Below, piece after piece: positions 38,159 to 58,141 of a stretch of DNA of 64,000 bases. Source of the stretch: an uncultured Siphonobacter sp. (GTDB lineage Bacteria; Bacteroidota; Bacteroidia; Cytophagales; Spirosomataceae); the NCBI GenBank assembly GCA_913775095.1, contig CAJYIW010000024.1, positions 186,001 through 250,000 of the forward strand, read 5' to 3'. How positions within the stretch are numbered: position 1 is the stretch's first letter; each line of letters begins with the position of its first letter. The notes beneath the pieces are model-generated. The model made no database searches and was not told the origin of the DNA. It worked only from the letters and a program-made list of their open reading frames with translations. The position numbers and the translations under genes are program-made.

Positions 38159-38195
38159 TGTTCGATTCCGTACAGTATATGTACGCCAGCGAACA
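38159..38195. promoter_or_regulatory. Predicted enhancer: tandem 16-bp palindromes, site A
   Basis: TGTTCGATTCCGTACA (38159-38174), 5 bp, then TGTACGCCAGCGAACA (38180-38195). Both fit TGTnCG-N4-CGnACA. The same pair with the same 5-bp gap is found at 48744 and 58038. It lies 53 bp before a TGGCAC element, the normal place for a sigma-54 activator, and between the regulator gene and the ECF operon. Confidence 0.75.
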
Positions 38196-38248
38196 CTTAT
38201 TTATTAAAAAATGCCCTTTTTAAGCTCCTGAGGGCCTTTTTCAACCTT

Positions 38249-38263
38249 TGGCACAGCTTTGGA
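38249..38263 (+). promoter_or_regulatory. Predicted sigma-54 promoter of the ECF/HlyD/ABC operon
   Basis: TGGCACAGCTTTGGA keeps the -24 TGGCAC element exactly. The -12 part (TTGG) differs from the textbook TTGC and is one base closer than usual, so the match is good upstream and loose downstream. Confidence 0.6.
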
Positions 38264-38345
38264 AAGTTAAGGCATCAGGGTTTAGTTTCGCTTACCGTCG
38301 GACGGCCCCATTCACGCCGTTCGACGGCCTTTCAACATCTGATTT

Positions 38346-38879
38346 ATGGAAACGCTTTGTAAAACTGATCGTACTGCTCTGGTAGAAGCCTGTCGCCGCG
38401 GTGACCGCTCTGCCCAGTATGAACTGTACCGGCTGTATTCCAAAACCATGTATAACGTTTGTTACCGGATTCTGAATCACACCGCTGAAGCCGAAGATGT
38501 GTTACAGGATGCGTTCGTAAAGTTTTTCCAGCGAATCCATGATTTCCGCCAGGAAAGTACCGTCGGAGCGTACCTGAAGCAAATTGTGGTGAATGAAGCC
38601 CTCAACCGGCTCCGTCAGCGGCGAATGCAGCTCGTAGAGGTAGAAGAAGGCATCGAAGTCGCTTTCGTACCCGCCACGGAACCTGACGACTGGGACGTAT
38701 CCGAAGTACGGACGGCTCTGATGAAGTTACCCGATGGCTTCCGGACCGTATTAACCCTGCATTTACTGGAGGATTACAGCCACGAAGAAATTGCCGAATT
38801 ACTGCATATTTCTCCCTCGACCTCCCGTTCCCAATTCATGCGGGCGAAGATCAAGCTAAAGGAATTACTTATGAATTAG
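38346..38879 (+). CDS. ECF-type RNA polymerase sigma factor
   Basis: A 177-residue sigma-70 family factor with only regions 2 and 4. Region 2 (about 25-95) includes the -10 recognition segment YRILNHTAEAEDVLQDAFVKFFQ, and region 4 (about 120-172) has the helix-turn-helix EEIAELLHISPSTSRSQFMRAK. No anti-sigma gene follows it, unlike most Bacteroidota ECF factors, which pair with FecR. It is the first gene of the exporter operon under a predicted sigma-54 promoter, so its amount is probably set by transcription. Targets unknown, possibly the same exporter genes. Confidence 0.93.
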   Translation: METLCKTDRTALVEACRRGDRSAQYELYRLYSKTMYNVCYRILNHTAEAEDVLQDAFVKFFQRIHDFRQESTVGAYLKQIVVNEALNRLRQRRMQLVEVEEGIEVAFVPATEPDDWDVSEVRTALMKLPDGFRTVLTLHLLEDYSHEEIAELLHISPSTSRSQFMRAKIKLKELLMN

Positions 38880-38968
38880 TTGATGGTTGTTCGTTATGAG
38901 TTACTTGTTTAGCTCGGACCTGACCACGAACTACCTTCCATCAACCAACCACCATTAACTAACAACTT
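38878..38968. repeat. Imperfect GT/CA-rich inverted repeat between ECF and HlyD genes
   Basis: AGTTGATGGTTGTTCGTT faces AACCAACCACCATTAACTAAC about 40 bp on, giving a long imperfect stem. Similar GTTGATGG-type elements lie at about 43630 and at 54845-54921. Confidence 0.4.
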
Positions 38969-38985
38969 AAAACCATATTTTCCCC

Positions 38986-40251
38986 GTGGATAAGAAAATT
39001 GAAAAAAAATTCTGGAGCTCAAAACGTGTATTTTTCATGATTGGTGGCTTGCTCCTGGTGTCACTTACGCTGTGGGCGGTGGTCTTTCGGGACACCCGCA
39101 GTCAGCTTCGGGTGGAGTCCGAGAAACAAACGATTTCGACGGTTTCGCAGGGTGCTTTTAATGAATTTATTCCCGTGAACGGAACGGTTATTCCCATTCA
39201 GAGTGTCCAGCTGGACGCCGTGGAAGGAGGTTCGATTGAAAAGATTTTCAAGCAGTCCGGGGATATGGTCAAGGCGGGCGATGTGATTCTTCAGCTTTCC
39301 AATACGGAATTAAAGCTCAACGTATTAACCCGGGAAACCGCTCTCTACGATCAGCTGAACAACGCCCGGACTTCGCGTCTGCAACTGCAACAGAATACCC
39401 TGACCCTACAAAATACGCTGGCTGAGATTGATTATCAGGTAAAAATCAAGGAACAGCAACTGAACCGTAACGACCGGGCCTCCAAGTATTTATCGGAAAA
39501 AGAACAGCAGGATGTACGGGAAGAAGTGTCCTACCAGAAACGCCGCCGCCAGGTTACGCAACGTTCGTACATGCAGGATTCACTGATTCGGATTCAGCAG
39601 AACTCCCAGCTGAATCAATCCGAAAAACGCATTTGGGAAAGCATTCAGAACGTGGGCCAGATGCTGGACAACCTGCTGGTACGGGCTCCGATTTCGGGAC
39701 AGCTTTCTACGGCTACGGATTTACAGATTGGTCAACTCATTACGAAAGGAACGAAGATTGGACAGGTGGATATTCTCGACAAATTCAAGGTTCGGGTGCC
39801 CATCGACGAATTATACCTGCCCCGCATTGTGAAAGGTCTGGAAGGCTACGCTGATCTGGACGGCAAGGAGTACAAACTGGTCGTGGATAAAGTTTTCCCG
39901 ACGGTAACCAACGGACGCTTTGAAGTAGATATGTTATTTGCACAAACGGCTCCCACCGATATTCGTCGCGGTCAGACGCTTCGCATTCGTCTGGAACTGG
40001 GCAAACCCGAACAGGCCGTGCTGTTACCGACGGGTGGCTTTTATCAGCAGACGGGCGGTAACTGGGTCTTCGTAGTGGAAGCCAATGGCGAGCGGGCCGT
40101 CAAACGTCAGATTCAGTTAGGCCGCAAAAATCCGACGTACTATGAAGTACTGGACGGCCTGAAACCCGGAGAAAAAGTAATCACCTCCAGCTACGAAACC
40201 TTCGGCGATAACGAAGTGCTGAACCTGAAGGAAAATAAGCAACCCCAATAA
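38986..40251 (+). CDS. HlyD/MacA family periplasmic adaptor of an efflux system
   Basis: A 421-residue membrane-fusion protein starting at GTG. An N-terminal transmembrane anchor (about 13-32, RVFFMIGGLLLVSLTLWAVV) is followed by the lipoyl/barrel half (AVEGGSIEKIFKQSGDMVKAGDVILQL), a coiled-coil hairpin rich in Gln and Leu (about 120-240) and the second lipoyl half (LVRAPISGQLSTATDLQIGQ). It links an inner-membrane ABC permease to an outer-membrane exit duct. The ATPase and permease genes follow at once; no TolC-like gene is in the window, so an outer-membrane partner must come from elsewhere. Confidence 0.93.
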   Translation: MDKKIEKKFWSSKRVFFMIGGLLLVSLTLWAVVFRDTRSQLRVESEKQTISTVSQGAFNEFIPVNGTVIPIQSVQLDAVEGGSIEKIFKQSGDMVKAGDVILQLSNTELKLNVLTRETALYDQLNNARTSRLQLQQNTLTLQNTLAEIDYQVKIKEQQLNRNDRASKYLSEKEQQDVREEVSYQKRRRQVTQRSYMQDSLIRIQQNSQLNQSEKRIWESIQNVGQMLDNLLVRAPISGQLSTATDLQIGQLITKGTKIGQVDILDKFKVRVPIDELYLPRIVKGLEGYADLDGKEYKLVVDKVFPTVTNGRFEVDMLFAQTAPTDIRRGQTLRIRLELGKPEQAVLLPTGGFYQQTGGNWVFVVEANGERAVKRQIQLGRKNPTYYEVLDGLKPGEKVITSSYETFGDNEVLNLKENKQPQ

Positions 40252-40256
40252 GTATG

Positions 40257-40377
40257 AACCACAGAGTTACACTGAGTTTTCACACAGAGTAACACATAAG
40301 ATTTTAAAAGCTTAATTCTATATAGATCATTCATACCCTGAGTACTCGGTGCCTGAACTCTGAGTAACTCTGTGGTT
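40257..40377. repeat. Long inverted repeat between HlyD and ABC genes
   Basis: AACCACAGAGTTACACTGAG (40257 on) faces a near-exact complement ending CTCTGTGGTT at 40377. Arms are about 36 bp with few mismatches. It is of the CCACAGAG type scattered in many Bacteroidota genomes. Confidence 0.7.
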
Positions 40378-40400
40378 AAAACAACCTGAAGCTCCAAACC

Positions 40401-41090
40401 ATGATTCAAATCAAAAACCTCCGCAAAGTTTACCGTACTGAAGAAATTGAAACGACGGCTCTGGATCACGTCAATGTCGAAATTGCCGACGGCGAGTTTG
40501 TGGCCATCATGGGACCTTCGGGTTGCGGAAAATCAACTTTACTGAACGTACTGGGAATGCTCGATAACCCATCCACGGGCGAGTATAACTTCTGGGGCGA
40601 AGAAATCTCTAAATATTCGGAACGCCAGCGGGCCAAGCTTCGGAAAGGGAACATCGGTTTCGTGTTCCAGAGCTTCAACCTGATCGACGAACTGACGGTG
40701 TATGAAAACGTAGAGTTACCCCTGCTCTACCTCGGCAAGTCAGCGGCCGAACGCAAAGAACTCGTGGAAACGGTCTTAACCCGCATGAACATCATGCACC
40801 GGAAAGACCACTTCCCGCAACAACTTTCGGGTGGTCAGCAGCAACGGGTGGCCATTGCCCGGGCGGTCGTAGCCAAGCCCAAGCTGATCCTCGCCGATGA
40901 GCCGACGGGTAACCTCGATTCAACCAATGGCGAAGAGGTCATGAAGTTGCTGCAACAACTCAACGAAGAAGGGACGACGATCATCATGGTCACGCACTCC
41001 CCCTACGACGCCAACTACAGCCACCGGATCATTAACCTCTTCGATGGCCACGTCGTGACGGAAAACGTGAATACGAAATTTCACATCTAG
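40401..41090 (+). CDS. ABC transporter ATP-binding protein (MacB/LolD type)
   Basis: A 229-residue ATPase with Walker [10 protein letters not shown] (residues 38-46), Q-loop FVFQSFNL, signature LSGGQQQR, Walker [14 protein letters not shown] and the H-loop VTHSP. It has the size and features of the LolD/MacB subfamily that drives mechanotransmission-type exporters with FtsX-like permeases. It is the only ABC ATPase gene in the window, while six permeases of the matching type are present, so it may serve several of them. It is in operon with the adaptor upstream and the permease at 41209. Confidence 0.96.
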
Positions 41091-41207: not shown

Positions 41208-41208
41208 T

Positions 41209-43614
41209 ATGTTTTCCAACTACCTGAAAATTGCCTGGCGAAGTCTGTGGAAGAACCGATTGTTTTCCGCCGTCAATCTGATCGGGCTGGCCCTGGGCTT
41301 AACGGCCTCTCTGCTGATTCTGGAGTACGTTAGTTTTGAGCGGAGTTACAACACGTTTCATCCCAAGCTGGCTCGCTTATACCGGATATTGATGGAGTCT
41401 CAATCCGGCTCCACGCAGCCCACTTCAGCTCCCGGAGTAAGCCTGCGGGCTAATTTCCCGGAAATGGAGTCGTATTGCCGGATCGCGGAAGGCGTGGGTA
41501 ATGGGATCGTCAGGGTTTCGGAGAAAACATTCCGGGAAGAGCGGACGCTTTACGCGGATGCTTCCCTGTTCCATCTTTTTCAATTCCCGGTTCGTTCCGG
41601 CGTCTCCCAGCAGTTAAGTAAACCCCTGACGGTTGGCATTTCCGTCCGGGAAGCTCAAAAATTCTTTGGCACTACGGAGGCTGTAGGCCGACAAATTACA
41701 GTGGACAATCAGTTTGGGAAAGCGGACTATACCGTGGCTCTGGTGTATGAAGACATGCCGGAAAACTCTGATATTCAGGCCGACCTTGTCTTTTCAATGG
41801 CTACGCTGGCTAACCCTTCGGTCATTAAAGCCAATAGCTGGGTTGATCCCACCGGCGTTGGGGCTCAGTTTGTTACTACTTACGTATTACTCGCTCCGCA
41901 GGCCGACGCATTCACGGCAGAACGGAAGTTCAATCAGCTCCTTAAGACCTTACCCACGGGCAGCACGGATCGAATCCGGTTGCAAGCCGTTCAATACCAG
42001 CACCTGGGCTCATCCCTGGCTGATTCGTCCAGCACCTTCGGAAATTTAGGATTTATCTACCTGATGAGCGGCATTGCCTCCCTCATCCTCCTGATTGCCT
42101 GGTTCAATTACGTGAATCTCAGTACGGCTCTGGTATCCAGACGGTCCAAAGAAGTAGGCGTCAGAAAAGTAATTGGAGCCCACCGTTTTCAAATCATTGG
42201 CCAGTTTCTGGGCGAATCGGTTATTCTCAATCTCATTGCGTTGTTCCTGGCTTTATTTCTGGTTGAGTTACTACAGGAATCTTTTAACTCGCTCATTCAG
42301 AAGAACCTCTCCCTATCCGTTTTATTCGATTCTCATTACTGGCTCTACGCCCTTCTTTTCTTTGGAGCGGGCATCGGGGTTTCCGGCTTTTATACCGCTT
42401 TTGGGCTGAGTGGCATCCATCCGCTGATCAGTCTGAAAGGCGGCTGGCTGAAATCCGGTAAAGGCTGGTTACGCCAGTCTCTGGTTCTTTTTCAGTTCAG
42501 CATTTCCATTACCCTTATTGCGGCGACGTTCATTGTGTATCATCAGCTTCAGTACATGCAACGGCAAAACCTGGGCGTTACCCTCCAGCAACGGCTGGTC
42601 ATGCAGGGACCGGAGTTGGGTCAGGACAGCACATTCCTTACCCGAACCGCTGGCTTCAGAAATGCCTTACATCAGTTACCTTTTGTGACGGCCTTTAGTT
42701 CTTCGGGTAACGTTCCGGGCAGTGGGTTTAATTTCTCAACCGAAAATGTGCTGCGGGCCGATCAGTCGGTGCCGGATCAGAAAACCAGTTTTGCGGTCCT
42801 GATTTGTGACGATCAGTTTTTTAAGACCTATGACATTCCTTTTGCCAGTGGCCGCGATTTCCTGAAGGGCGAAACCGAAAAGTCCTGGGCAAACGTGCGT
42901 ACACTGATTGTCAACGAAACAGCAGCGGCTACACTGGGCTATTCTCCCACCGCCATCCTCAACAAAACGGTTATGTTCAACGGACAGTCCGTTGAGGTCA
43001 TCGGTGTGGTGAAAGATTACCATCACCTCGGTTTGCAACAGGCCATTCAGCCCATCGTCTACTGGCCTCAGCAAAATACCACCTACCTGACGGCCCGGAT
43101 TTCGACGGATCAGGTTCAGAATCATCTTCAGCAGTTGAAAGCTACCTATGAGCGGTATTTTCCAGGTAATCTCTTCAGCTTTTACTTTGCCGACGAACAT
43201 TACAACCGGCAATACCAGACCGAACAACAGTACAGTTCGCTCTTTACCCTTGCTTCGGGCCTGTCTATTTTCATTGCCTGCCTGGGTCTGCTGGGTCTGG
43301 CCGCCTTCAGTGCCGAACAGCGAACCAAAGAAATTGGCATTCGTAAAGTCCTGGGGGCCAGTGTGTTTCAAATATCAGCCCTGCTGTCAACGGCTTACAT
43401 TAAGCTGGTCATACTGGCTCTGCTCCTGTCAATTCCGCTGGTCTGGTTTACCATGAATTACTGGCTGGAGCAATTTGCCTATCACGTTTCCATGCGGTGG
43501 TGGGTCTTTGCCGAAGCAGGCCTGTTAACCCTGTCCATTGCTCTCCTGACCGTGAGTTACCAGTCCATCCGGGCGGCCCTGACAAACCCGGTCAAGAGCC
43601 TGAAAAGTGAGTAA
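41209..43614 (+). CDS. FtsX-family ABC permease, paralog 1
   Basis: An 801-residue inner-membrane permease. Architecture: transmembrane helix near 20-40, a large periplasmic MacB-type domain, three helices from about 280, then a second helix, periplasmic domain and three-helix group, i.e. two FtsX/MacB units in one chain. The cytoplasmic loop RRSKEVGVRKVIGA (near 311) and its second copy QRTKEIGIRKVLGAS (near 704) are the coupling loops that meet the ATPase. The tail is NPVKSLKSE, shared with the other paralogs. It follows the ATPase gene and is the most likely direct partner of that ATPase and the HlyD adaptor. Confidence 0.93.
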   Translation: MFSNYLKIAWRSLWKNRLFSAVNLIGLALGLTASLLILEYVSFERSYNTFHPKLARLYRILMESQSGSTQPTSAPGVSLRANFPEMESYCRIAEGVGNGIVRVSEKTFREERTLYADASLFHLFQFPVRSGVSQQLSKPLTVGISVREAQKFFGTTEAVGRQITVDNQFGKADYTVALVYEDMPENSDIQADLVFSMATLANPSVIKANSWVDPTGVGAQFVTTYVLLAPQADAFTAERKFNQLLKTLPTGSTDRIRLQAVQYQHLGSSLADSSSTFGNLGFIYLMSGIASLILLIAWFNYVNLSTALVSRRSKEVGVRKVIGAHRFQIIGQFLGESVILNLIALFLALFLVELLQESFNSLIQKNLSLSVLFDSHYWLYALLFFGAGIGVSGFYTAFGLSGIHPLISLKGGWLKSGKGWLRQSLVLFQFSISITLIAATFIVYHQLQYMQRQNLGVTLQQRLVMQGPELGQDSTFLTRTAGFRNALHQLPFVTAFSSSGNVPGSGFNFSTENVLRADQSVPDQKTSFAVLICDDQFFKTYDIPFASGRDFLKGETEKSWANVRTLIVNETAAATLGYSPTAILNKTVMFNGQSVEVIGVVKDYHHLGLQQAIQPIVYWPQQNTTYLTARISTDQVQNHLQQLKATYERYFPGNLFSFYFADEHYNRQYQTEQQYSSLFTLASGLSIFIACLGLLGLAAFSAEQRTKEIGIRKVLGASVFQISALLSTAYIKLVILALLLSIPLVWFTMNYWLEQFAYHVSMRWWVFAEAGLLTLSIALLTVSYQSIRAALTNPVKSLKSE

Positions 43615-43733: not shown

Positions 43734-46151
43734 ATGTTATCTAATTATCTCAAAATTGCCCTGCGTAACCTCTGGCGAAACAAGACCTATTCGGCCATTA
43801 ACCTTTTCGGTCTGGCCTTTGGTATTGCGACCTGTCTGCTCATCAGCTTCTATATTCTGGATGAGTTGAGTTACGATCGTTTTCTAACCAACGCCGACCG
43901 GGTCTACCGCATTAATTCGGACATCCGGTTCGGAGGGTCAGATACGCATACGTCCAATAGTTCGGCACCGATGGCGGCGGCCCTGGTTCAGAATTATCCT
44001 GAAATTGAAGCCGCTGCCCGTATCCTCAATCAGGCTCCCGGTATGATCTGGAAAGGATCGGAGAAAATTCAGGAAAAAGAAGTCTACGCCGACTCCAGCA
44101 TTTTTGAAGTTCTGGGCATTCCCCTGTTGTCCGGAAATCCGAAGACGGCACTCAATCAGCCGCATACGGTAGTCATTACCCGAAAAATGGCTTTAAAATA
44201 TTTCAATACCGTCGAAGCCGTCGGAAAGACCTTACGCGTCAATGATTCCCAGTATTACAAAGTGACTGGCGTGATTGAAGACTTTCCCTCCACTTCTCAC
44301 CTGAAAACCGATCTGTTTTTTAGCATGCTGGACAACGCCAACAGCAGGCAGGACTACTGGCTCAGTCATAATTTCTATACCTACCTGTTGCTCAAACCCG
44401 GCGTTTCTCCGAAAAAAGTAGAACAGCAGATTCAGCAGCTTTTCGTCCGTCGGGCGGGGCCATTCATTCAGCAGACGCTGGGCAAAAGTATGGCGGAACT
44501 GGAAGCGGCGGGCAGTTATCTGCGTTACTCGCTCATGCCCATTACCGACATTCACCTCTATTCGGACCGCGTGGATGAGATGAATCCACCGAGTAACATT
44601 CAGTACGTGTACATCTTTTCGGCGATTGCTCTTTTTATTCTGGTCATTGCCTGTATCAACTTCATGAACCTGGCAACGGCCCGCTCCGCTCACCGGGCGA
44701 AGGAAGTGGGCGTGCGGAAAGTATTGGGTTCGGGAAATGGAAATTTGATTGGCCAGTTTCTCACGGAATCCGTCTTATTGAGCCTGATGGCCTTTGCCAT
44801 TTCTTTACTGCTCGCCGAGCTAGCCTTGCCCGCTTTTAATAACCTGGCTGACAAACAGTTAACCCTAAACTTTTTCAAAGACTGGTACCTCTTTCCTGTC
44901 TTACTTCTTTTTGCTTTACTGGTGGGCGTACTGGCCGGTAGTTACCCCGCTTTTTACTTGTCTGCCTTTGAGCCGGCCAGGGTGCTGAAAGGAAAGTTAA
45001 CGACGGGTATGCGAAGCGGCTGGCTTCGGAGTTCACTGGTTGTTTTTCAGTTTTTTTCTTCGGTTTTCCTCATGATTTGCACGCTCGCCATTTATAACCA
45101 GCTCAAATTCATTCAAAAGGAAAAAGTAGGTTTCAACCGGGATCAGGTAGTCATGCTAAATGGCGTTTACGGACCCCAGGTTCAGGCCCTGAAAAACGAA
45201 ATTCTGCGAATTCCCGGGGTTCAGAGCGGCACCGTAACCGGGTACTTACCCATCCCCTCCTGGCGGGGCGATAATTCGTTTTTTCCGGAAGGAGAAGTCG
45301 TTCAGGAGCGAGCCGTCCAAATGCAGGAGTGGTACGTAGACACCGATTATACGAAAACACTGGGGCTGAAAATCATCGCCGGGCGTAACTTTTCGCCCGG
45401 AATGGCTACCGATTCTTCGGGTATTATTCTCAACGAAACGGCCGTCAAACTCTTTGGATATGCCAACCCGATCGGGAAGAAGATTTCGGCTATTGAAGAC
45501 ATGCAAACGGGCCAAACCCGGGAACTGACCGTCATTGGCGTCGTTAAGAATTTCAATTACGAATCCCTGCGGGAAAACGTCGGGGCTTTGTCTCTGCAAT
45601 TGAGTTCCAGACCAGCGGGCTGGGCCAATTTCAGACTTCAATCGAAGAATTTACCCGAAACGATGGGTCAGATTGAGCAGGTCTGGAAGAAACTCATGCC
45701 GGGCCAGCCCTTCCAGTCTCAGTTTATGGACGAAGCCTTTGATAACATCTATCGAAGCGAACAACGCATTGGTAATGTCTTTATGGCCTTCGCTATTACT
45801 GCCATCGTGATTGCCTGTCTGGGTTTGTTCGGGTTAGCGGCTTATTCCGCCGAGCGTCGCACCAAAGAAATTGGCGTTCGCAAAGTGCTGGGAGCTTCTG
45901 AAATTCAGCTCATTACTTTACTGTCCAGCGACTTTATTCGATTAATCGGAATTGCCTTCCTTATTGCCTCTCCCCTGGCCTGGTACGTCATGGATCAATG
46001 GCTGGAAGGTTTTGCCTACCGCATTACGCTGAACATCTGGCTATTCCTCCTGGCGGGTGGACTGGCTCTGGCCGTTGCCTTACTAACCGTTAGCAGTCAG
46101 GCCATTAAGGCTTCGCTAACCAATCCCGTCAGGAGTCTCAAAAGCGAATAA
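43734..46151 (+). CDS. FtsX-family ABC permease, paralog 2
   Basis: 805 residues. The start MLSNYLKIALRNLWRNKTYS is typical. Coupling loops are HRAKEVGVRKVLGSG (near 319) and RRTKEIGVRKVLGAS (near 707); the tail is NPVRSLKSE. It lies 119 bp after paralog 1 with no terminator seen, so it is probably in the same operon. The substrate-side periplasmic domains differ clearly from paralog 1, so the two may handle different cargo or form a heterodimer. Confidence 0.92.
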   Translation: MLSNYLKIALRNLWRNKTYSAINLFGLAFGIATCLLISFYILDELSYDRFLTNADRVYRINSDIRFGGSDTHTSNSSAPMAAALVQNYPEIEAAARILNQAPGMIWKGSEKIQEKEVYADSSIFEVLGIPLLSGNPKTALNQPHTVVITRKMALKYFNTVEAVGKTLRVNDSQYYKVTGVIEDFPSTSHLKTDLFFSMLDNANSRQDYWLSHNFYTYLLLKPGVSPKKVEQQIQQLFVRRAGPFIQQTLGKSMAELEAAGSYLRYSLMPITDIHLYSDRVDEMNPPSNIQYVYIFSAIALFILVIACINFMNLATARSAHRAKEVGVRKVLGSGNGNLIGQFLTESVLLSLMAFAISLLLAELALPAFNNLADKQLTLNFFKDWYLFPVLLLFALLVGVLAGSYPAFYLSAFEPARVLKGKLTTGMRSGWLRSSLVVFQFFSSVFLMICTLAIYNQLKFIQKEKVGFNRDQVVMLNGVYGPQVQALKNEILRIPGVQSGTVTGYLPIPSWRGDNSFFPEGEVVQERAVQMQEWYVDTDYTKTLGLKIIAGRNFSPGMATDSSGIILNETAVKLFGYANPIGKKISAIEDMQTGQTRELTVIGVVKNFNYESLRENVGALSLQLSSRPAGWANFRLQSKNLPETMGQIEQVWKKLMPGQPFQSQFMDEAFDNIYRSEQRIGNVFMAFAITAIVIACLGLFGLAAYSAERRTKEIGVRKVLGASEIQLITLLSSDFIRLIGIAFLIASPLAWYVMDQWLEGFAYRITLNIWLFLLAGGLALAVALLTVSSQAIKASLTNPVRSLKSE

Positions 46152-46276: not shown

Positions 46277-48715
46277 ATGCTTCGAAACTATATTCAAATC
46301 GCCCTGCGAACCCTCTGGAAAAACAAGGTTTTTTCACTGATCAACATCTTGGGTCTGGCCGTAGGAATGGCCTGTTGCCTGCTGATTTTACTGTACGTTC
46401 AGCACGAATTAAGCTACGATACTCACAACGATCGTTCGAAAGACCTGTATCGCTTAGTTACCGAATTCGTCACGGAGGCTAAAACCGAAAAAGCTCCCAC
46501 TTGTGCCGCACCGGTGGCGGCGGCGGTGAAAAACGAATTTCCGGAAGTAGAGGAAGTAACCCGGGTGTTCATTCCATTTTCGGAAGACAAGGCCATTTTT
46601 AAACGCATGGCTCGTGGTAAAGCCCAGCAAAGCTTTTATGAGTCCAAGGGGGCTTTCGCAGATCCTACCTTTTTCAATTTGTTCACTTATGAATTTCTGG
46701 AGGGCTCAACCAAACACGCCCTGGAACAGCCTAATTCCGTAGTCATTTCCGAAGAGATCGCCCGAAAGCTGTACGGCACTAATGCTGCTCTTAATCAGGT
46801 GATTCGCATCAGCAGCTCCAACGGGGATATGGACTTTAAAATCACGGGTGTCTTTCGTCCGGCTGGTCCTTCACACATAGACAGTCACTACTTTATGTCG
46901 CTAAGCAGCGGGGATATTGGCGAGTTTGTCCGTAACACGCAGGACTTTGCCAGCAACAATATGTTCTTTACCTACCTCAAACTCCGACCCGGCGTAGAGG
47001 CCAAAAGTCTGGAAGCCAAGTTTCCAGCCTTCATTGAGAAGTACATGGGTAAGGATTTAAAACGGGTGGCCTTCAAGAAAAATCAGTACCTGGAGTCCGT
47101 TCCCCGCATTCATTTGTACACTGATGCGGAGACGATCTTTAATAAGAAAGGTAACATTCAGTTTGTCTACATTCTGATTACCGTTGCCTTGTTTACGCTG
47201 GTGATTGCCTGCATTAATTTCATGAATCTCAGTACGGCCCGTTCCGGTAAGCGAGCGGCTGAAGTGGGGATTCGTAAGGTCATGGGAGCCGAAAAAGAAA
47301 CCCTGATCGGTCAGTTTCTGGGTGAATCCATGCTCATCAGTTTGATGGCTCTGGTCCTGGCTATTTTTCTGGTTGAAGTAAGCCTGCCGCTTTTCAACAG
47401 TATTGCCGGCACTGATTTAAGTATCTCGTTTACCAAAGATTATACCAAACTTTTTCTCTTTCTGGGGCTGGCTCTGATTACGGGCATACTGGCGGGTAGT
47501 TACCCGGCCTTTTACCTTTCTTCCTTCAATCCGGCTCAGGTACTGAAAAGTAAGGCCAGCAACAGCCTGGCGGCGATTAACCTTCGCAAGGCTCTGGTGG
47601 TCTTCCAGTTTGCCTTGTCCATTATCCTTATTTTGGGTTCGCTCGTGATCTGGCGGCAAATGGATTTTCTGCAACACCAGGATCTCGGTTTTGTGAAAGA
47701 TCAGCAACTCGTGATTCCCCTCCGCACCAATCTGGCCAAAGAGCATTATACGACGTTCAAGCAGGCCATTGAAAAGAATTCGGAGGTGGTTTCGGCAGCC
47801 GCAGCCACGAGTTACCCCGGTATTTTCGTAGCCGGCGACCAGACTTTTTACCGGGAAGGAAAAACGGTAGAAAACGGTGTTACCCTGCGGATGAATCACG
47901 TCAATTATGATTTCATGGAAACCATGGGCTTTCATAAAATCAGTGGCCGTTTCTTTTCACCCCAATTCCCGGCCGACACGGCCCAGCGGATCATCATTAA
48001 CGAGCATGCCGTGGCGAAACTGGGCTACACCCCCCAAAGTGTTCTTGGCAAAACACTGCACTGGAATGGATCAGAGGGGCGGCTGGACTATCAGGTAGTG
48101 GGGGTAGTCAAAGATTTTAATTTCGCTGGACTTCAGAAACCCATCGACAATTTTGGCTTCATTCTGGCTCCCTGGGGTTTGAACTATATGGTCGTTCGAA
48201 CGAATACGGCCAAGGTCAGCCGATTACTGACGTCTCTGGAAAATACCTGGAAGACCTTTAATCCGGAAGAGCCTTTCGAATACAGTTTTCTGGATCAGGA
48301 TTTCCAGCGAAACTACGAAACGGAGCAGAAAATGGGGACTCTTATCAGTTACTTTACCACCATTGCCATCCTCATTGCCTGCCTGGGCTTATACGGTCTG
48401 GCGGCATTCACGGCCGAACAGAAAATCAAGGAAATTGGGGTGCGTAAAGTCCTCGGGGCCAGCATTACCAACATTGTGGGTTTGCTCTCGCGTGACTTCA
48501 TGAAACTCGTCCTGATTGCCTACCTCATTGCCGTTCCCGCCAGCTGGTTTTTAATGGACCAATGGCTCCAGGAATTTGCTTACCGGACCGAGTTAAGCTG
48601 GTGGCTCTTCGCCGGAGCCGGGTTCATCGCCTTTTTGATTGCTCTCGCTACCGTCAGCAGTCAGACCATTCGGGCGGCCCTGGTTAATCCCGTCAAGAGT
48701 CTGAAAAGCGAATAA
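46277..48715 (+). CDS. FtsX-family ABC permease, paralog 3
   Basis: 812 residues. Coupling loops are SGKRAAEVGIRKVMGAE (near 323) and QKIKEIGVRKVLGAS (near 714); the tail is NPVKSLKSE. The N-terminal periplasmic region is distinctive (TEAKTEKAPTCAAPVAAAVK). It lies 125 bp after paralog 2, with a strong hairpin in the gap, so it may be expressed less than the genes before it. It is the last gene before the second predicted enhancer and sigma-54 promoter. Confidence 0.92.
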   Translation: MLRNYIQIALRTLWKNKVFSLINILGLAVGMACCLLILLYVQHELSYDTHNDRSKDLYRLVTEFVTEAKTEKAPTCAAPVAAAVKNEFPEVEEVTRVFIPFSEDKAIFKRMARGKAQQSFYESKGAFADPTFFNLFTYEFLEGSTKHALEQPNSVVISEEIARKLYGTNAALNQVIRISSSNGDMDFKITGVFRPAGPSHIDSHYFMSLSSGDIGEFVRNTQDFASNNMFFTYLKLRPGVEAKSLEAKFPAFIEKYMGKDLKRVAFKKNQYLESVPRIHLYTDAETIFNKKGNIQFVYILITVALFTLVIACINFMNLSTARSGKRAAEVGIRKVMGAEKETLIGQFLGESMLISLMALVLAIFLVEVSLPLFNSIAGTDLSISFTKDYTKLFLFLGLALITGILAGSYPAFYLSSFNPAQVLKSKASNSLAAINLRKALVVFQFALSIILILGSLVIWRQMDFLQHQDLGFVKDQQLVIPLRTNLAKEHYTTFKQAIEKNSEVVSAAAATSYPGIFVAGDQTFYREGKTVENGVTLRMNHVNYDFMETMGFHKISGRFFSPQFPADTAQRIIINEHAVAKLGYTPQSVLGKTLHWNGSEGRLDYQVVGVVKDFNFAGLQKPIDNFGFILAPWGLNYMVVRTNTAKVSRLLTSLENTWKTFNPEEPFEYSFLDQDFQRNYETEQKMGTLISYFTTIAILIACLGLYGLAAFTAEQKIKEIGVRKVLGASITNIVGLLSRDFMKLVLIAYLIAVPASWFLMDQWLQEFAYRTELSWWLFAGAGFIAFLIALATVSSQTIRAALVNPVKSLKSE

Positions 48716-48743: not shown

Positions 48744-48780
48744 TGTCCGGAATTGTACATAAACCGTTCAGTTTCGGACA
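48744..48780. promoter_or_regulatory. Predicted enhancer: tandem 16-bp palindromes, site B
   Basis: TGTCCGGAATTGTACA (48744-48759), 5 bp, then CGTTCAGTTTCGGACA (48765-48780). The outer half-sites fit TGTnCG and CGnACA exactly; the inner ones are looser. Same gap as sites A and C, and 54 bp before a TGGCATA element. Confidence 0.7.
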
Positions 48781-48834
48781 TTTATTTTTCATAATATACT
48801 AACAATCAATACATTAATAACCAAAGCATCACCT

Positions 48835-48849
48835 TGGCATACTTTTAAA
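48835..48849 (+). promoter_or_regulatory. Predicted sigma-54-like promoter of the small gene and paralog 4
   Basis: TGGCATACTTTTAAA keeps the -24 TGGCA. The -12 GC is not present, so the call rests on the match in position and -24 sequence to the other two loci. Confidence 0.5.
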
Positions 48850-48895: not shown

Positions 48896-49189
48896 ATGTC
48901 ATACATTGCAATACCTCTGCCTTCTTTGCCCGGGAAACATGACATCGAAATTTCGGTGGTTATTAACGGACAAAAACAGGATTTGCATTACCGGGTCGAG
49001 CTGTTTCGCTGGGATGATTGCTCCACCCCTTCATTCAACCGGGTGGAATGCCTGCGGGAAATGCTGACGACCTACGATCAGGAATGGTCGCTGTATTACA
49101 TCGGTGCTCCCACGGACGATTTTGTCCCGATCACCTTCGTTAAAAAAGAAGAGTTAAGCCAGATGCGGGCTGTTACGCAACTCGCCTGA
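48896..49189 (+). CDS. Small protein of unknown function
   Basis: A 97-residue, soluble-looking protein with no signal peptide or membrane helix. It is rich in aromatic residues (RVELFRWDD, QEWSLYYIGAP) and has two cysteines about ten residues apart (DDCSTPSFNRVECLRE). I do not recognise a family. The gene is first after the second predicted sigma-54 promoter and ends 13 bp before permease paralog 4, so it is probably made together with that permease. It could be a cytoplasmic partner or regulator of the transporter; this is inference from position only. Confidence 0.75.
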   Translation: MSYIAIPLPSLPGKHDIEISVVINGQKQDLHYRVELFRWDDCSTPSFNRVECLREMLTTYDQEWSLYYIGAPTDDFVPITFVKKEELSQMRAVTQLA

Positions 49190-49202: not shown

Positions 49203-51593
49203 ATGCTAAAAAATTATGTAAAGATCGCCTTTCGCAATCTGCTGAAGCATCGACTGTTCACGTTCATCAACCTCGCTGGATTATCCGTCGGGTTAGTTGC
49301 GTGCCTGCTCATTAGTCTCTACGTTCGTCATGAATTAGACTATGACACGTTTCATGAAAAAGGCGACCGGATTTACCGGATGGTAACGGATATCAAAACG
49401 CCTACGGAAACCCTTCCTTCCGACATTACCTCCGGCCCGATGGCCGGGCAGATGAAACAGCATTTACCTGAAATAGAGGCCTATACCCGCCTGTGGCCAC
49501 GAAATGCAGTGTTTGCGTACAAAGATCAGAAATTTCAGGAAAATGAGCTTTACATGGCTGATTCCACGCTTTTTGATGTCTTTACCTTCCCTCTTTTGAA
49601 GGGCGATGCCCGCACGGCTCTGAAAGCCCCTTTTAGTGTGGTATTAACTCAGAAAACGGCCCGGAAATATTTTGGCGAGCAGGACCCCATGGGGCAGACG
49701 TTGCGAATGGAAGGGCAGTTTCCGGTGAAGGTAACGGGCGTATTAAAAGACATTCCCGAGACCAGTCATATTCCTTTTGATCTGTTGCTGTCCATGTCTA
49801 CGCTGACCAAACACCTGCAACCCGGCCTGGACGACCAATGGAGCAATTTTGGTTTCTATTCGTACGTACTCCTGAAGCCACACACGAACGCAGGAGCCCT
49901 GGAAGCTAAGATTGACGGCGAATTGAATCGTCTGATTGGTAAGGATATGCTGAAAAATCAAATGCAGTACATGTTGCACCTTCAGCCCTTGCGGGACATT
50001 TACCTGAAATCGGATCGCGGAGCACCCCAACAGGGAAGTCTGAAGAATGTGTATATTTTCTCGGTTATCGCCGGATTCATTCTCATTCTGGCCTGCATCA
50101 ATTTTATTAACCTGACCATCGCCCGGGCCAGCGAACGGGCCAAGGAAGTGGGCGTACGAAAAGTAGTGGGAGCCGGACGGCAGCAGCTTACGTTCCAGTT
50201 CCTGAGTGAATACGTATTACTGAGTACGTTTGCGTTTGGGCTGGCCGTTTTGCTCTGTGAGTTACTGCTTCCCTACTTCAATGAGCTTTCCGGCAAAACG
50301 GTGCTCAACAGCACGTTCAGTAACCCGACGTTCTGGCTGATCCTGCTCGGACTGGCCTTACTCGTAGGCCTTCTGGCCGGACTATACCCAGCTCTGGTCT
50401 TATCGGGAATGAAAGCAATCACGGTGCTGAAAGGACGTTTTGCAACCAGCCGACAGGGCCTGGTTCTTCGAAAATCGCTGGTGGTTTTTCAGTTTGTTAT
50501 TTCGGTAAGTCTGATGGTTTGCACCTTTGTGGTCTACCATCAGTTGTCGTATATGCGTCGGCAGTCGCTCGGTTTCTCCAAGGATCAGATGCTGGTGCTG
50601 AACCTGAATGATTCGCAATACATGGCCCGGCACGGAGCTACGCTGAAAGCTCAGTTTTCAAAAATTCCGGGCGTGGAATCCGTGACGGAATCTTCTACCG
50701 TTCCCGGCAGCGGATTCATGGGAGCCTATACGCATCTGGAAAACCAGACGGGGGAGTTACAGGCCTCTAACATTGGGCTCTACTCGGTTGATTTTAACTT
50801 CTTCGATCAGTATCAGATTCCGCTCATCGCCGGACGAAGCTTTTCTACTAAATTTTCCACTGACTCTACGCAGGCATTGGTAGTCAATGAAGCCGTCGTT
50901 CGCAGTCTGGGCTATACGTCACCGGAACAAATCGTTGGCAAGAAATTTGATCAGTGGGGCCGAAAAGGAATGATCATCGGCGTAGTCAAAAACTTCCACG
51001 ATGAGTCTTTGCGGGCAGAAATCAGTCCGGCGACCTTCCGCATCAACCCGAATGAATTTCAGCAGATTTCCCTGAAAATTAAAGCTCAGCAGATTCCCCA
51101 AACACTGGCGGCAGTTGAGCAGCTCTGGAAACAGGCCGTTCCTGTACGACCTTTCGATTATTTCTTCATCGACCAGTCGTTCAACGATAAATACAAGGGC
51201 GAAGAGCAATTCGGCAAACTGTTTATTTACTTCGCCAGCATCGCCATTTTCATTGCCTGCCTGGGCCTGGTGGGACTCACTTCTTACGCTACCTTCCAGC
51301 GAACCAAGGAAATTGGCGTTCGGAAAGTGCTCGGAGCAAGTGCCTGGCAGGTGACGACGCTGCTTTCCATGGAATTTCTGAAACTGGTCTTCATCGCCGT
51401 TGTGATTGCCAGTCCCGTCGCCTGGTACGTCATGACCCGCTGGCTCGAAGACTTCCACTACCGAACCTCCATGCCGATCTGGGTATTCCCGCTGGCGGGT
51501 GTGCTGGCTCTGGGCATTGCTTTAGTAACGGTAAGTTCACTCACGATTAAAGCCGCCACGGCGAATCCGGTCAAGAGTTTAAAAACGGAATAA
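49203..51593 (+). CDS. FtsX-family ABC permease, paralog 4
   Basis: 796 residues. Coupling loops are ERAKEVGVRKVVGAG (near 310) and QRTKEIGVRKVLGAS (near 698); the tail is NPVKSLKTE. It forms a two-gene unit with the small protein upstream and ends at a good terminator, so unlike paralogs 2 and 3 it is independent of the ECF/HlyD operon, although it carries the same predicted enhancer pair. It has no ATPase of its own. Confidence 0.92.
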   Translation: MLKNYVKIAFRNLLKHRLFTFINLAGLSVGLVACLLISLYVRHELDYDTFHEKGDRIYRMVTDIKTPTETLPSDITSGPMAGQMKQHLPEIEAYTRLWPRNAVFAYKDQKFQENELYMADSTLFDVFTFPLLKGDARTALKAPFSVVLTQKTARKYFGEQDPMGQTLRMEGQFPVKVTGVLKDIPETSHIPFDLLLSMSTLTKHLQPGLDDQWSNFGFYSYVLLKPHTNAGALEAKIDGELNRLIGKDMLKNQMQYMLHLQPLRDIYLKSDRGAPQQGSLKNVYIFSVIAGFILILACINFINLTIARASERAKEVGVRKVVGAGRQQLTFQFLSEYVLLSTFAFGLAVLLCELLLPYFNELSGKTVLNSTFSNPTFWLILLGLALLVGLLAGLYPALVLSGMKAITVLKGRFATSRQGLVLRKSLVVFQFVISVSLMVCTFVVYHQLSYMRRQSLGFSKDQMLVLNLNDSQYMARHGATLKAQFSKIPGVESVTESSTVPGSGFMGAYTHLENQTGELQASNIGLYSVDFNFFDQYQIPLIAGRSFSTKFSTDSTQALVVNEAVVRSLGYTSPEQIVGKKFDQWGRKGMIIGVVKNFHDESLRAEISPATFRINPNEFQQISLKIKAQQIPQTLAAVEQLWKQAVPVRPFDYFFIDQSFNDKYKGEEQFGKLFIYFASIAIFIACLGLVGLTSYATFQRTKEIGVRKVLGASAWQVTTLLSMEFLKLVFIAVVIASPVAWYVMTRWLEDFHYRTSMPIWVFPLAGVLALGIALVTVSSLTIKAATANPVKSLKTE

Positions 51594-51597
51594 CCCC

Positions 51598-52635: not shown

Positions 52636-52653
52636 CATTGACCCCTACTACCT

Positions 52654-53467: not shown

Positions 53468-53501
53468 CATCCCTTCTTGTAAAAGTCTCATTTATCGATC
53501 T

Positions 53502-54842: not shown

Positions 54843-54844
54843 TT

Positions 54845-54921: not shown

Positions 54922-54928
54922 GGTTACC

Positions 54929-55972
54929 ATGAAAATAGTAGATTATCCAGCTATTATTAAACAGGCTCTGGCTGGATTTGATGATACCAAAGTCATCGCT
55001 AAGGTCGAGGATATCAGTGCCCGTGTTTCAACCAATCACGTCTTTCGGGTTACCTTCGACGATGACGATATCATCATTGCCAAGTTATCCTATTTTGGCT
55101 CGTACGAACAGTTTAAAGAAGATCATAAAATCATCCATACGCTTTCGAATAACCTGCTGTATCCCTTCGAAAACGTACTGGCCCGTTCGTTGGTGAAAGA
55201 CAACGAAGTGTACACCTATCGTTACAGTGACGGTTTTATTGACGCCTGGGTGGTGTTTTATAACCCCATTCGGGCGATGCAGAAAATGCCCCGCCGTCTG
55301 GATGAAGAGCACATTCGCAAGTTAGGACGGGAAATTGCCCGTTTTCACAAAGCCTGTGCGAAAGTAAGTCCGGTGTTGCCCAAATCTTCCAAAACGTTAC
55401 GGTCGGACGTGAACGATTTACTGCGGATTCTGGAAACGGAAACGGGTAAGTTTGAACACCGGATGCACATCAATGATTTGCGGAAACAATGTGAAATTTT
55501 TCTGGAAAACCGGCAGCAGTTAGTGGAGCAATCCGTGGAGACGATGCCCGTTTTCGTAGACTGGAACATCGGGAATTTTTCGGTCAATGATAACCTCGAA
55601 TTGTTCTCCCGCTGGGATTACGACTGGTTCCGGATCAGTTACCGCGTGATGGATTTCTACTTTTTCAGCCGCGTCGTTTCAGACATTGGCGACCGCACCG
55701 TTTTCAGTTACGTCATTGGTCCGTTAATGGAGGATCGTTTTATTCTGTTTCTCCAGGAATACCATAAAGTTTATCCCCTGACTGAACCCGAAGTTCGATT
55801 CATGAAAGAAGCGTATCGTTTCTTCATTCTGACGTATGTGATCAAGTACGGACGTTATTTTTTCCACCGCACTTACGCTACGAAATTGCAGAAAGAAGCC
55901 TACGAGACCTACTTCCCGTCGATTGATAAACAGTTTGACGCGGACAAGATTCTTCGGGCTTTGAATTTATAA
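54929..55972 (+). CDS. Phosphotransferase (APH fold) partner of the GS-like enzyme
   Basis: A 347-residue kinase-fold protein. The N-lobe has DDDDIIIAKLSYFGS with the likely ATP-binding Lys. The catalytic loop is VFVDWNIGNFSV (D-x4-N, near 211), but the His before Asp found in most APH enzymes is Val here, and the DFG equivalent is SRWDYDWFRIS. It is therefore a divergent member whose activity should not be assumed. The gene lies between the glutamine-synthetase-like gene and the Rpn-like gene (3 bp on). A similar protein is encoded at 35627-36628. It may act on the same metabolite as the GS-like enzyme. Confidence 0.82.
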   Translation: MKIVDYPAIIKQALAGFDDTKVIAKVEDISARVSTNHVFRVTFDDDDIIIAKLSYFGSYEQFKEDHKIIHTLSNNLLYPFENVLARSLVKDNEVYTYRYSDGFIDAWVVFYNPIRAMQKMPRRLDEEHIRKLGREIARFHKACAKVSPVLPKSSKTLRSDVNDLLRILETETGKFEHRMHINDLRKQCEIFLENRQQLVEQSVETMPVFVDWNIGNFSVNDNLELFSRWDYDWFRISYRVMDFYFFSRVVSDIGDRTVFSYVIGPLMEDRFILFLQEYHKVYPLTEPEVRFMKEAYRFFILTYVIKYGRYFFHRTYATKLQKEAYETYFPSIDKQFDADKILRALNL

Positions 55973-55975
55973 CGT

Positions 55976-56992
55976 ATGCTGAGACGGAAGAATGATATTC
56001 TGCTGAAAAGTGCCTTTGAAGAAGCCTTTCCTGATTTATTACGGTTTTTTTTCAAGGATGCCGATCAGCTTTTTGACATCGAACGCGGCTTCGAGTTCAT
56101 GGATAAAGAGTTAATGGAGCTCTTTCCCGAACTTGAGAAAAAAGGCGGGAATCGACTGGTAGACATGCTGGCGAAAGTCTACTCCAGCGAAGGTCAGGAA
56201 GAATGGTTACTGATTCACCTGGAAATTCAGGCTCAGCATGACCGGAAGTTCGCCAGACGAATGTTTCAGTATTTCTACCGAATTTATGATCGGTACGATG
56301 TCCCTATTACGGCGATTGTTGTCTTTACAGGAGCCCAGAAACCCGTCAAAAGCGATGGCTTTGAGTATCATTTTTTAGGAACCAACCTTCAGTACACCTA
56401 CAACGCCTATCATATACTGGAGCATTCTGAAGACCAGCTGCTAAGCATGAATAATCCCTTTGGACTAATCGTTCTGGCTGCTCAGAAAGCTTTACTCATG
56501 AACAGGATTCCTGAACGGGAACTGGCCGAACAAAGGCTAACGATTGCCCGAACCTTAATTGCGAGTAAACAATATGACAGTGAACGAATTAAACGATTTT
56601 TGTATTTCTTAAAGACGTTTATTCACATTGATAATTCTGAAATAAACGATACCTTTGATCATGAAGTCGATTTATTAACAGGTAACAATCATACCATGGG
56701 AATCATCGAAACCATCCAAATGCTCGCAAAAGAAGAATGGCGGGAAAAAGGCCTGGAGGAAGGGCTGGAGAAAGGCCTGGAGCAAGGAATTGAAAAAGGT
56801 ATTGAGCAAGGCATTGAAAAAGGCATTGAAAAAGGTATTGAGCAAGGCATTGAGCAAGGTCTTCAAAAAGGCAAAACCTCGTTTGTAAAAAATCTTTTAC
56901 AAAACACCGATTTCACGCACGCCAAAATCGCTGCTCTTGCGGATGTCTCTGTTCCTTTCGTAGAAAAAATACAAAAAGAAATCACCCGATAA
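55976..56992 (+). CDS. Rpn / PD-(D/E)XK nuclease family protein
   Basis: A 338-residue protein of the Rpn (recombination-promoting nuclease, transposase_31-like) group. The N-terminal nuclease half has NDILLKSAFEEAFPDLLRFF, DMLAKVYSSEGQEEW and LIHLEIQAQHD, matching the D...E-x-K/Q active-site pattern with Gln in the last position. A helical middle part is followed by ten GxEx tetrapeptides (residues 259-298), then a basic tail. Members promote RecA-independent recombination, and some act in phage defence. It starts 3 bp after the kinase-fold gene and ends before a strong terminator. An in-frame ATG at 56696 could give a 98-residue C-terminal product. Confidence 0.85.
   Translation: MLRRKNDILLKSAFEEAFPDLLRFFFKDADQLFDIERGFEFMDKELMELFPELEKKGGNRLVDMLAKVYSSEGQEEWLLIHLEIQAQHDRKFARRMFQYFYRIYDRYDVPITAIVVFTGAQKPVKSDGFEYHFLGTNLQYTYNAYHILEHSEDQLLSMNNPFGLIVLAAQKALLMNRIPERELAEQRLTIARTLIASKQYDSERIKRFLYFLKTFIHIDNSEINDTFDHEVDLLTGNNHTMGIIETIQMLAKEEWREKGLEEGLEKGLEQGIEKGIEQGIEKGIEKGIEQGIEQGLQKGKTSFVKNLLQNTDFTHAKIAALADVSVPFVEKIQKEITR
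56750..56869 (+). repeat. Ten-unit 12-bp tandem repeat inside the Rpn-like gene
   Basis: Units of the form GGnATTGAnnAA or GGnCTGGAnnAA encode Gly-(Ile/Leu)-Glu-(Lys/Gln/Glu). Units 4 to 9 are nearly identical, the outer ones more diverged. Twelve is a multiple of three, so slippage changes length without breaking the frame. Confidence 0.9.
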
Positions 56993-57015
56993 TTTCGTGG
57001 CTTCTGTCACTTTTC

Positions 57016-57063
57016 TCCTGCTCATGTGTTCGGTTAAGTTACCGAAGCATGAGCAGGACTTTT
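57016..57063 (+). terminator. Terminator after the Rpn-like gene
   Basis: A long stem (TCCTGCTCATG...CATGAGCAGGA with an inner TTCGGT/ACCGAA) is followed by CTTTTAT. Confidence 0.85.
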
Positions 57064-57108
57064 ATAAGCCTATGCATCGCCTGATTTTTCAGGAAATCCT
57101 TATCTTCC

Positions 57109-57957
57109 ATGAACCTCGACGAATTTCGTAGTATCATTTCTACCTACAGAGTCATCTTCTTTGATGCCTATGGGGTATTGAAAAACCATAAAGGACTTAT
57201 TCCGGGTATTGAGAATACCTTTCAATATCTCAAAGAACAGAATATTGATTATTATATTCTGACCAACGATGCCTCCCGAAGCCCCTTCCAACTGGCGGAA
57301 TCGTACCACCGTCTGGGTGTTCCGGAAATCAAGGCTGAACACATCATTTCCTCGGGTTTACTGGCTCAGGAATTCCTGACCCAGAAAGTTCGTCAGGGCA
57401 CAGTTGCCTATCTGGGGACCCCTGATTCGGCTTCCTACCTCGATACCGGCACCTTGATTCCCTTACCCATCAGTGAGCTGGATATTGACGATTGCGATCA
57501 CGTAGAAGCACTCGTTTTTCTGGATGATGAAGGCTTTGACTGGAAGACTGATCTCAACAAGACCGTCAATCTGCTTCGTAAACGCAACATTCCGGTGATT
57601 GTCTCCAATACCGATGCCACCTATCCGGTTTCTAAAAATCAGGTAGCGATGGCCATTGGCGGGATTGCCAAAATGATTGAAAACTCGGTGGGAAAACAGT
57701 TCATTCGTTTCGGCAAACCGGAGACTCAGCTATTTATCTATGCTTACGATTACATCCGAAACATTCAACCCGTCATGAAACACGAAATTCTGATGGTGGG
57801 TGATACTCTGCATACGGACATTCTGGGCGGTAACAAATTCGGACTGGACACGGCTCTGGTGCTTACGGGTAACACCCGGGCCGAAGACGCCGCCTCTCGC
57901 ATTTCTGCTTCGGGGATTATTCCGACGTACATCTGTGAATCTGCGGTTATCCTCTGA
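57109..57957 (+). CDS. HAD-IIA family hydrolase
   Basis: A 282-residue phosphatase-fold protein. Motif I is FDAYGVLKNH (Asp nucleophile near 19), where the second Asp of the usual DxD is Tyr. This recalls the HAD-IIA subgroup with DxW, in which the acid/base differs. Motif II is ILTNDASRSP, and motif IV MVGDTLHTDILGGNKFGLDT holds the metal Asp residues. The IIA cap lies between motifs II and III. The substrate is unknown, possibly a sugar or nucleotide phosphate. It follows the terminator of the Rpn-like gene and is transcribed separately. Confidence 0.88.
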   Translation: MNLDEFRSIISTYRVIFFDAYGVLKNHKGLIPGIENTFQYLKEQNIDYYILTNDASRSPFQLAESYHRLGVPEIKAEHIISSGLLAQEFLTQKVRQGTVAYLGTPDSASYLDTGTLIPLPISELDIDDCDHVEALVFLDDEGFDWKTDLNKTVNLLRKRNIPVIVSNTDATYPVSKNQVAMAIGGIAKMIENSVGKQFIRFGKPETQLFIYAYDYIRNIQPVMKHEILMVGDTLHTDILGGNKFGLDTALVLTGNTRAEDAASRISASGIIPTYICESAVIL

Positions 57958-58037
57958 TTTCCTCCTCCTGAGATCAGCTCTCGTTCATAGCTCCTGATGT
58001 GATCCGTATTTTCAGCTTTACCTGCCCAATGGCAATG

Positions 58038-58074
58038 TCCGTAATTGAACAGAACCTGTCCGATTACGGACATT
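58038..58074. promoter_or_regulatory. Predicted enhancer: tandem 16-bp palindromes, site C
   Basis: TGTCCGTAATTGAACA (58038-58053), 5 bp, then the perfect palindrome TGTCCG-ATTA-CGGACA (58059-58074). The whole is also framed by 15-bp inverted arms (58033-58047 and 58065-58079). It lies 52 bp before a TGGCATA element. Confidence 0.75.
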
Positions 58075-58126
58075 GCCATTTATTCAATATCTTCATTATC
58101 AATCCATTACACAATCATCCTTCTTT

Positions 58127-58141
58127 TGGCATAACTTTCTG
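58127..58141 (+). promoter_or_regulatory. Predicted sigma-54-like promoter of permease paralogs 5 and 6
   Basis: TGGCATAACTTTCTG matches the -24 element and the TTT that follows at the other two loci. The -12 part is not textbook. It begins 47 bp before the first ATG. Confidence 0.5.

Follow-up and report, generated by a model that had tools for sequence, protein, structure and literature searches.

At the glnAp2 promoter, NtrC binds as dimers at two upstream sites that look to the same side of the helix and acts on a -24/-12 promoter; the activator is an AAA+ protein with a receiver domain and a Fis-type helix-turn-helix (HTH), and the connecting loop is often aided by IHF. Bce-type modules combine an intramembrane-sensing kinase with FtsX-type ABC permeases under an OmpR-type regulator. 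The stretch analysed here (hereafter the window) comprises 64,000 nucleotides from an uncultured Siphonobacter sp., positions 186001–250000 of contig C24 in a draft genome of 5.65 Mb, and carries three pairs of palindromes, each followed at a near-fixed distance by a TGGCA element and then by genes for FtsX/MacB permeases. We assign a probability of about 0.87 to the reading that these form one NtrC-type sigma-54 regulon of FtsX/MacB permeases, in which the pairs would be enhancers and the TGGCAY elements sigma-54 promoters. The elements, their spacing, their conservation, their gene context and their co-occurrence with a nearby regulator gene are read directly from the sequence.

Paired palindromes precede the permease units

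The three pairs occupy positions 38159–38195, 48744–48780 and 58036–58072 on the plus strand, each consisting of two 16-bp palindromes separated by a 5-bp gap, so that every pair spans 37 bp with a step of 21 bp from palindrome to palindrome. The original prediction, made from this DNA alone, had described this 5-bp geometry at all three places and placed the first two pairs correctly; the third, put at 58038, lies 2 bp to the left. Its consensus TGTNCG-N4-CGNACA is exact for three of the six half-sites, and the mismatches against this strict form are, in order, 0, 0, 1, 2, 1 and 0. The 21-bp step, together with phased distances to the elements further on, gives the helically phased upstream dimer sites that an enhancer of this type has.

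The window shows no excess of single palindromes at up to two mismatches (28 found, 22.5 expected, and 14 of 100 shuffles reach 28), and the signal therefore resides in the pair; the single palindrome as signal was rejected. Scanning the window with gaps of 2–4 or 6–9 bp and up to three mismatches yields no pair. A genome-wide scan, covering gap 5 only, with a degenerate pattern that includes all three pairs and up to three mismatches returns four sites, namely those in the window and C25:75012, and the reversed pattern returns none. The fourth pair (locus L004) lies upstream of a 212-residue protein with a signal-peptide-like start, as judged by eye, and is followed by a weak TGGTAT 65 nt further on.

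Behind each window pair stands an exporter unit, as had been proposed. Double-domain MacB permeases, retrieved with PF12704, number 11 in the genome, each about 800 residues long with two MacB domains and all encoded on C24; six lie inside the window and five in two C24 units outside it. Pairs with a 6-bp gap are located upstream of both outside units, at C24:252112–252149 and C24:272990–273027 (minus strand), with CGGCAT at 56 and 66 nt. All 11 double-domain permeases are thus organized in five same-strand units behind a gap-5 or gap-6 pair. Moreover, the seven MacB genes outside C24, which are shorter, have no pair (gaps 4–7, up to four mismatches) within the flanks scanned, 1.5 kb each and 15 kb for contig C20. 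Among all loci then collected, at up to one mismatch, gap 5 accounts for 158 unique pairs, gap 4 for seven, gap 6 for five and gap 9 for one, a distribution biased toward 5 because the loci were fetched with the gap-5 pattern. Neither the gap-6 pairs nor the spacer palindrome described below was part of the original prediction, to which the poor -12 boxes at sites 2 and 3 likewise add a qualification.

Conservation and genomic placement of the pairs

The conservation in relatives that the original prediction expected is borne out. Within the family, 118 of 200 genomes carry a pair with up to one mismatch (1/200 for the reversed control), and at up to two mismatches all six genomes of the genus do (control 0). 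Across the order Cytophagales, 49 of 241 genomes carry one at up to one mismatch, against 0/241 for the reversed pattern; of these, 21 (out of 29) are members of the family and were included in the count above, and 28 (out of 212) come from other families.

A set of 118 unique pairs, which is distinct from the 118 genomes and stems from the matches listed for part of the positive genomes, was used for placement. Only five of these lie wholly within an open reading frame of at least 150 codons, whereas 1835 of 2360 positions drawn at random from these loci do, a contrast that favours the original prediction over random occurrence in coding regions. Nineteen of the 118 came from loci fetched through the regulator; in the 99-site set that excludes them, genes for FtsX, HlyD, ABC or extracytoplasmic-function (ECF) proteins adjoin 81 sites, on the downstream side or, if direction is unclear, on either side.

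The candidate -24/-12 elements and their spacing

Element 1 (TGGCACAGCTTTGGA, 38249–38263) starts 54 nt after pair 1, element 2 (TGGCATACTTTTAAA, 48835–48849) 55 nt after pair 2, and element 3 (TGGCATAACTTTCTG, 58127–58141) 55 nt after pair 3, all on the plus strand; the -12 part is poor in elements 2 and 3. Distances are counted from the last base of the pair to the start of TGGCA. On this count the near-fixed distance of the original prediction is retained, with its offsets of 53, 54 and 52 becoming 54, 55 and 55.

The same spacing recurs across the collected loci. Within 250 bp of the 118 unique pairs, TGGCAY pointing away from the pair occurs 115 times, of which 65 start at 53–56 nt and 24 at 63–68, with three at 42–44 and one at 57–62; several of those at 68 nt are second copies, the locus having another at 56. 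Control hexamers on the opposite strand number 21 and are scattered, with one at 53–56 and one at 63–68. After greedy filtering, which also produced the other nonredundant sets used here, 23 of 59 nonredundant family sites have TGGCAY at 53–56, and the remaining sites that have one show it at 42–44, 59, 64–67, 70 or 78–79. In other families, 11 of 36 nonredundant sites have TGGCAY at 53–56 and 16 have none. By eye, the -24 box there often reads (A/T)GGCA(A/G) with TTG at -12, and a relaxed search for (T/A/C)GGC-N6-T(T/G)-N-G at the 36 sites gives nine matches, all at 54–55 or 63–65.

The -12 position provides additional evidence. Sixty-nine sites (47 nonredundant) were picked by TGG(C/T)A(C/T) alone, with the -12 G left unselected, and promoters were accepted only at 42–44, 52–57 and 62–68, the unbiased distances being those of the separate counts above (59 and 36 nonredundant, 118 unique). 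Aligned on the -24 box, these sites show T in 94% at position 12 and G in 81% at position 14, that is, GG-N10-G, the sigma-54 signature, followed more often by A than by C. The family logo thus has GG at -24 and G at -12 with ten bases between; in the window only site 1 has this full arrangement.

At 33 nt from pair 1, on its regulator side, a weak element, TGGTACACTTTTGAT (38112–38126, minus strand), points toward the regulator gene and may be a divergent -24 element. Across the window and loci L046, L047, L049, L050 and L051, TGGTAY at 33 nt is found in the own genome and in four of four congeneric loci with upstream DNA. The value of 33 equals 54 minus 21, a hint that the regulator gene may be autoregulated from a divergent sigma-54 promoter.

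The proposed activator and its kinase

The NtrC-type response regulator encoded at 36659–38053 on the minus strand is the proposed activator. It matches Response_reg, PF00158 and HTH_8 (Fis-type), all above cut-off, and is the sole PF00158 match within the window, in agreement with the original prediction; in the whole genome the same profile gives nine matches, five of them strong. Its named close relatives are from Siphonobacter, at 93–99% identity. The loop sequence GAFTDA is present in 36 of 36 regulator sequences, its own included, and is counted among the GAFTGA variants that keep activity in the part of PMC4641369 consulted. Two RpoN genes (PF04552 matches) are found in the genome, at C23:83723 and C24:290903. 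One of these two directly adjoins an activator gene of the GAFTGA type.

The regulator is linked to the pairs by position and by co-occurrence. Thirty regulator loci were opened, those scoring best among 131 genomes with a match. In 21 of them the pair has the regulator on one side and HlyD, or ECF followed by HlyD, on the other; one further locus is truncated. At an E-value of 1e-150 in the 200 family genomes, 110 have both motif and regulator, eight the motif only, 21 the regulator only and 61 neither. With a laxer cut-off in 13 chosen genomes, the regulator is recovered in seven of the eight motif-only genomes, three times as a partial match, and the eighth genome is 66% complete. More distant regulator relatives, in Roseivirga and in a Cytophagales metagenome-assembled genome (MAG), are preceded by a degenerate pair (three mismatches, gap 4) with TGGTAY at 52. 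Furthermore, a Colwellia MAG contig (L297) carries a relative of 54% identity with HlyD, ABC and FtsX genes downstream, and its control region shows, by eye, the palindromes, a spacer palindrome and TGGCAT, a layout that may reflect transfer or mis-binning.

Close by, at 34266–35639 on the minus strand, lies a sensor histidine kinase gene with a HATPase_c match and a weak HisKA match below cut-off. Near its N-terminus, hydropathy shows two neighbouring hydrophobic segments and a very short loop, from which we infer a kinase of the intramembrane-sensing type.

A palindrome in the spacer resembles two inverted IHF half-sites

Between the pair and the -24 box, many sites contain a palindrome of the form TAA-N4-YTGATWATCAR-N4-TTA, described here as a new element, which resembles two inverted IHF half-sites; each half equals WATCARNNNNTTR, the IHF consensus. 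In the window it is located at 48792–48816 for site 2 (core 9/11, with another 9/11 match overlapping its right end at 48814) and at 58085–58109 for site 3 (core 10/11), both on the plus strand, and the spacer of site 1 contains no such palindrome. A classical FNR box was considered for this palindrome and rejected, as the spacing of its half-sites differs.

Seventeen of the 47 nonredundant spacers contain WATCARNNNNTTR, where shuffled spacers have a mean of 0.36 and none of 1000 shuffles reaches 17; the other 30 lack the full consensus, which in the window is present at sites 2 and 3 and absent at site 1. Counted from TGG, it sits at -20/-19 in 13 of the 17 and at -31/-30 in four. The core YTGATWATCAR, chosen after inspection of the spacers, is matched at 9 or more of 11 positions in 42 of the 47 (shuffle mean 4.4, maximum 10 in 500), and its best start is -25/-24 in 36 spacers and -36/-35 in seven, one turn apart. 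The outer arms were kept out of the alignment, and on alignment by the core TAA and TTA emerge symmetrically and unselected.

The 25-bp palindrome is also abundant beyond the permease loci. At up to two mismatches there are 123 copies in the own genome (reversed control 7) and 99–137 in each of five congeners (controls 2–10), and 16 of 18 newly opened palindrome loci (L273–L290, all best matches) are intergenic. A PF00216 search, with other HU-type families left unsearched, finds one gene in the genome. These observations suggest, at somewhat less than even odds, that Cytophagales possess a general DNA-bending module: a symmetrical, homodimer-type IHF site, present in about 100 or more copies per genome, to which one HU-like protein binds in a sequence-specific manner. 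Within the permease regulon, this module would be one of four parts, alongside the tandem palindromes and the -24 and -12 boxes, with spacings that evolve mainly in whole helical turns. If the one HU-like protein does bind this abundant palindrome, the site would illustrate how the work of IHF gets done in a bacterium that has no evident IHF pair.

Gene organization of the three units

All genes of the units lie on the plus strand. Unit 1 begins with an ECF sigma factor (38346–38879), followed by an HlyD-type membrane fusion protein (38986–40251) and an ABC ATPase (40401–41090), all three assigned by Pfam, and by three FtsX/MacB_PCD double-domain permeases at 41209–43614 (Pfam and PF12704), 43734–46151 and 46277–48715 (both PF12704). 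Unit 2 comprises a 97-residue protein (48896–49189) that has no Pfam match and one double-domain permease (49203–51593, PF12704). Unit 3 contains two further permeases, at 58174–60567 (Pfam and PF12704) and 60586–62982 (PF12704), and a 168-residue protein (63012–63518) with a signal-peptide-like start, as judged by eye, distant relatives of which stand beside pairs in L021 and L132. Between units 2 and 3, positions 55976–56992 encode a 338-residue protein with repeated EKGIEQG-type motifs near its C-terminus and, by eye, a transposase- or nuclease-like look.

Proposed mechanism and alternative explanations

Binding, sigma-54 dependence, bending, the signal and the function are inferred from the arrangement described above. 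In the proposed mechanism, the sensor kinase would phosphorylate the NtrC-type regulator, two dimers of which would occupy the two palindromes, both on one helix face because these are 21 bp apart. The dimers would then assemble the AAA+ oligomer, which would contact and open the sigma-54 polymerase waiting at -24/-12. The short loop would be kept in phase by a distance of about 54 bp from pair to -24 box, or one turn more or less, and the IHF-like palindrome probably bends the DNA at most 54-bp-spaced sites, sites 2 and 3 of the window included. As a result, HlyD, ABC and FtsX/MacB-type permeases would be expressed together with small exported proteins, most likely as an envelope-stress or export response.

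Several observations weigh against this assignment. The regulator carries GAFTDA, and GAFTGA is called invariant in sigma-54 activators in the part of PMC12316311 covered. No pair is found in 8 of the 29 regulator loci with upstream DNA, nor in any of five more divergent loci; 21 genomes have the regulator and lack a gap-5 pair at up to one mismatch, and the laxer search adds the regulator to the motif-free genome G022. The Fisher p value for motif and regulator, 2.5e-24, takes no account of phylogeny or genome size. At sites 2 and 3 of the window the -12 G at position 14 is missing, also in congeners, and 25 of the 59 nonredundant family sites have no TGGCAY within 110 bp, although perhaps some of these have variant -24 boxes. 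Finally, 18 of the 99 sites adjoin none of the FtsX, HlyD, ABC or ECF genes; several of them stand ahead of genes for small secreted proteins that resemble one another as relatives.

The best-surviving alternative, which we regard as unlikely, assigns the pairs to the genome's other permease-linked NtrC-type regulator, encoded on contig C20, or to both paralogues in common. The C20 operon runs HlyD, TolC-like (by eye), ABC, permease, permease, regulator, kinase, and a related palindrome, GTGCGAATTCGCAC, upstream of its HlyD gene (L152:8803) could be a sister enhancer. Two features of C20 also count against the window regulator as binder, namely the shared GAFTDA with a similar HTH and recognition helix, and its co-occurrence with the motif, both being present in 90 of 200 genomes. 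This co-occurrence is nevertheless the poorer one: at an E-value of 1e-150 there are 28 genomes with the motif only, 18 with C20 only and 64 with neither, and the motif genomes without C20 include G006 and G023, with at least seven sites, and the congeners G060 and G083. On these grounds C20 as sole binder was rejected. Moreover, the C20 palindrome has G at position 4, where the family alignment of the pairs has C in 83% and T in 13% and almost never G, and 21 of 30 loci have a pair next to the window-type regulator, an equivalent count for C20 loci not having been made.

Less probable still is the explanation that an ordinary repressor or activator uses the pairs as its operators at a promoter of the sigma-70 type, with TGGCAY belonging to that architecture rather than being a -24 box. 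The poor -12 boxes at two of the three window sites and the family sites without TGGCAY would fit it, and a fixed spacing suits any directly contacting activator; however, GG-N10-G emerges across the family, the nine relaxed matches in other families all fall at 54–55 or 63–65, the distance shifts by helical steps, the regulator next to the pair belongs to the sigma-54 activators, and RpoN is present in the genome. Least probable of all, with only the slightest chance of being right, is that the repeats are non-regulatory DNA copied along with the permease operons: the five units are indeed paralogous and clustered within about 46 kb, but spacers and flanks diverge while pair, distance and boxes stay, some pairs stand before genes that, by eye, seem unrelated (for PadR-like and small secreted proteins), and pairs recur in other families. 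A single NtrC-type regulon, as originally predicted, is the reading supported by the TGGCAY spacing, the unselected -12 G, the gene context, and the position and co-occurrence of the regulator.

Comparison with known systems

Promoter predictions have linked sigma-54 to COG0577, FtsX-like permeases of the antimicrobial-peptide type, in Bacteroidia (PMC12316311). That link rests on promoter matrices, and in the portion of the paper covered, which excludes the supplements, no enhancer motif, regulator or spacer element was seen for these permease genes and "IHF" has no matches; a literature search brought up no paper whose title or abstract names this enhancer or the spacer element. If the proposed regulon is correct, the FtsX/MacB permease families of Cytophagales gain a regulator with its binding code and a list of targets, and their joint control could be tested by one deletion. 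The many natural copies would also form a data set on the displacement permitted between enhancer and promoter, mainly by whole helical turns.

The spacer palindrome shares with an IHF site the consensus, present in each half, and the location between enhancer and sigma-54 promoter, and differs in being symmetrical, as for a homodimer, in a genome with the single PF00216 gene reported above. As in Bce-type modules, a kinase with hardly any extracytoplasmic part stands beside FtsX-type permeases; unlike in these, the regulator is NtrC-type and the permeases are MacB-like. With NtrC/glnAp2 systems the locus shares paired sites on one helix face, a -24/-12 element and an activator of receiver, AAA+ and Fis-type HTH domains, whereas its targets are FtsX/MacB permeases, its loop is short and nearly constant, its -12 box reads TKGA rather than TTGCA, its activator carries GAFTDA and its bend-like site is palindromic. 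The mechanism would be NtrC-type and of a known kind, to which the predicted enhancer, its regulator and a phased palindromic spacer element are added.

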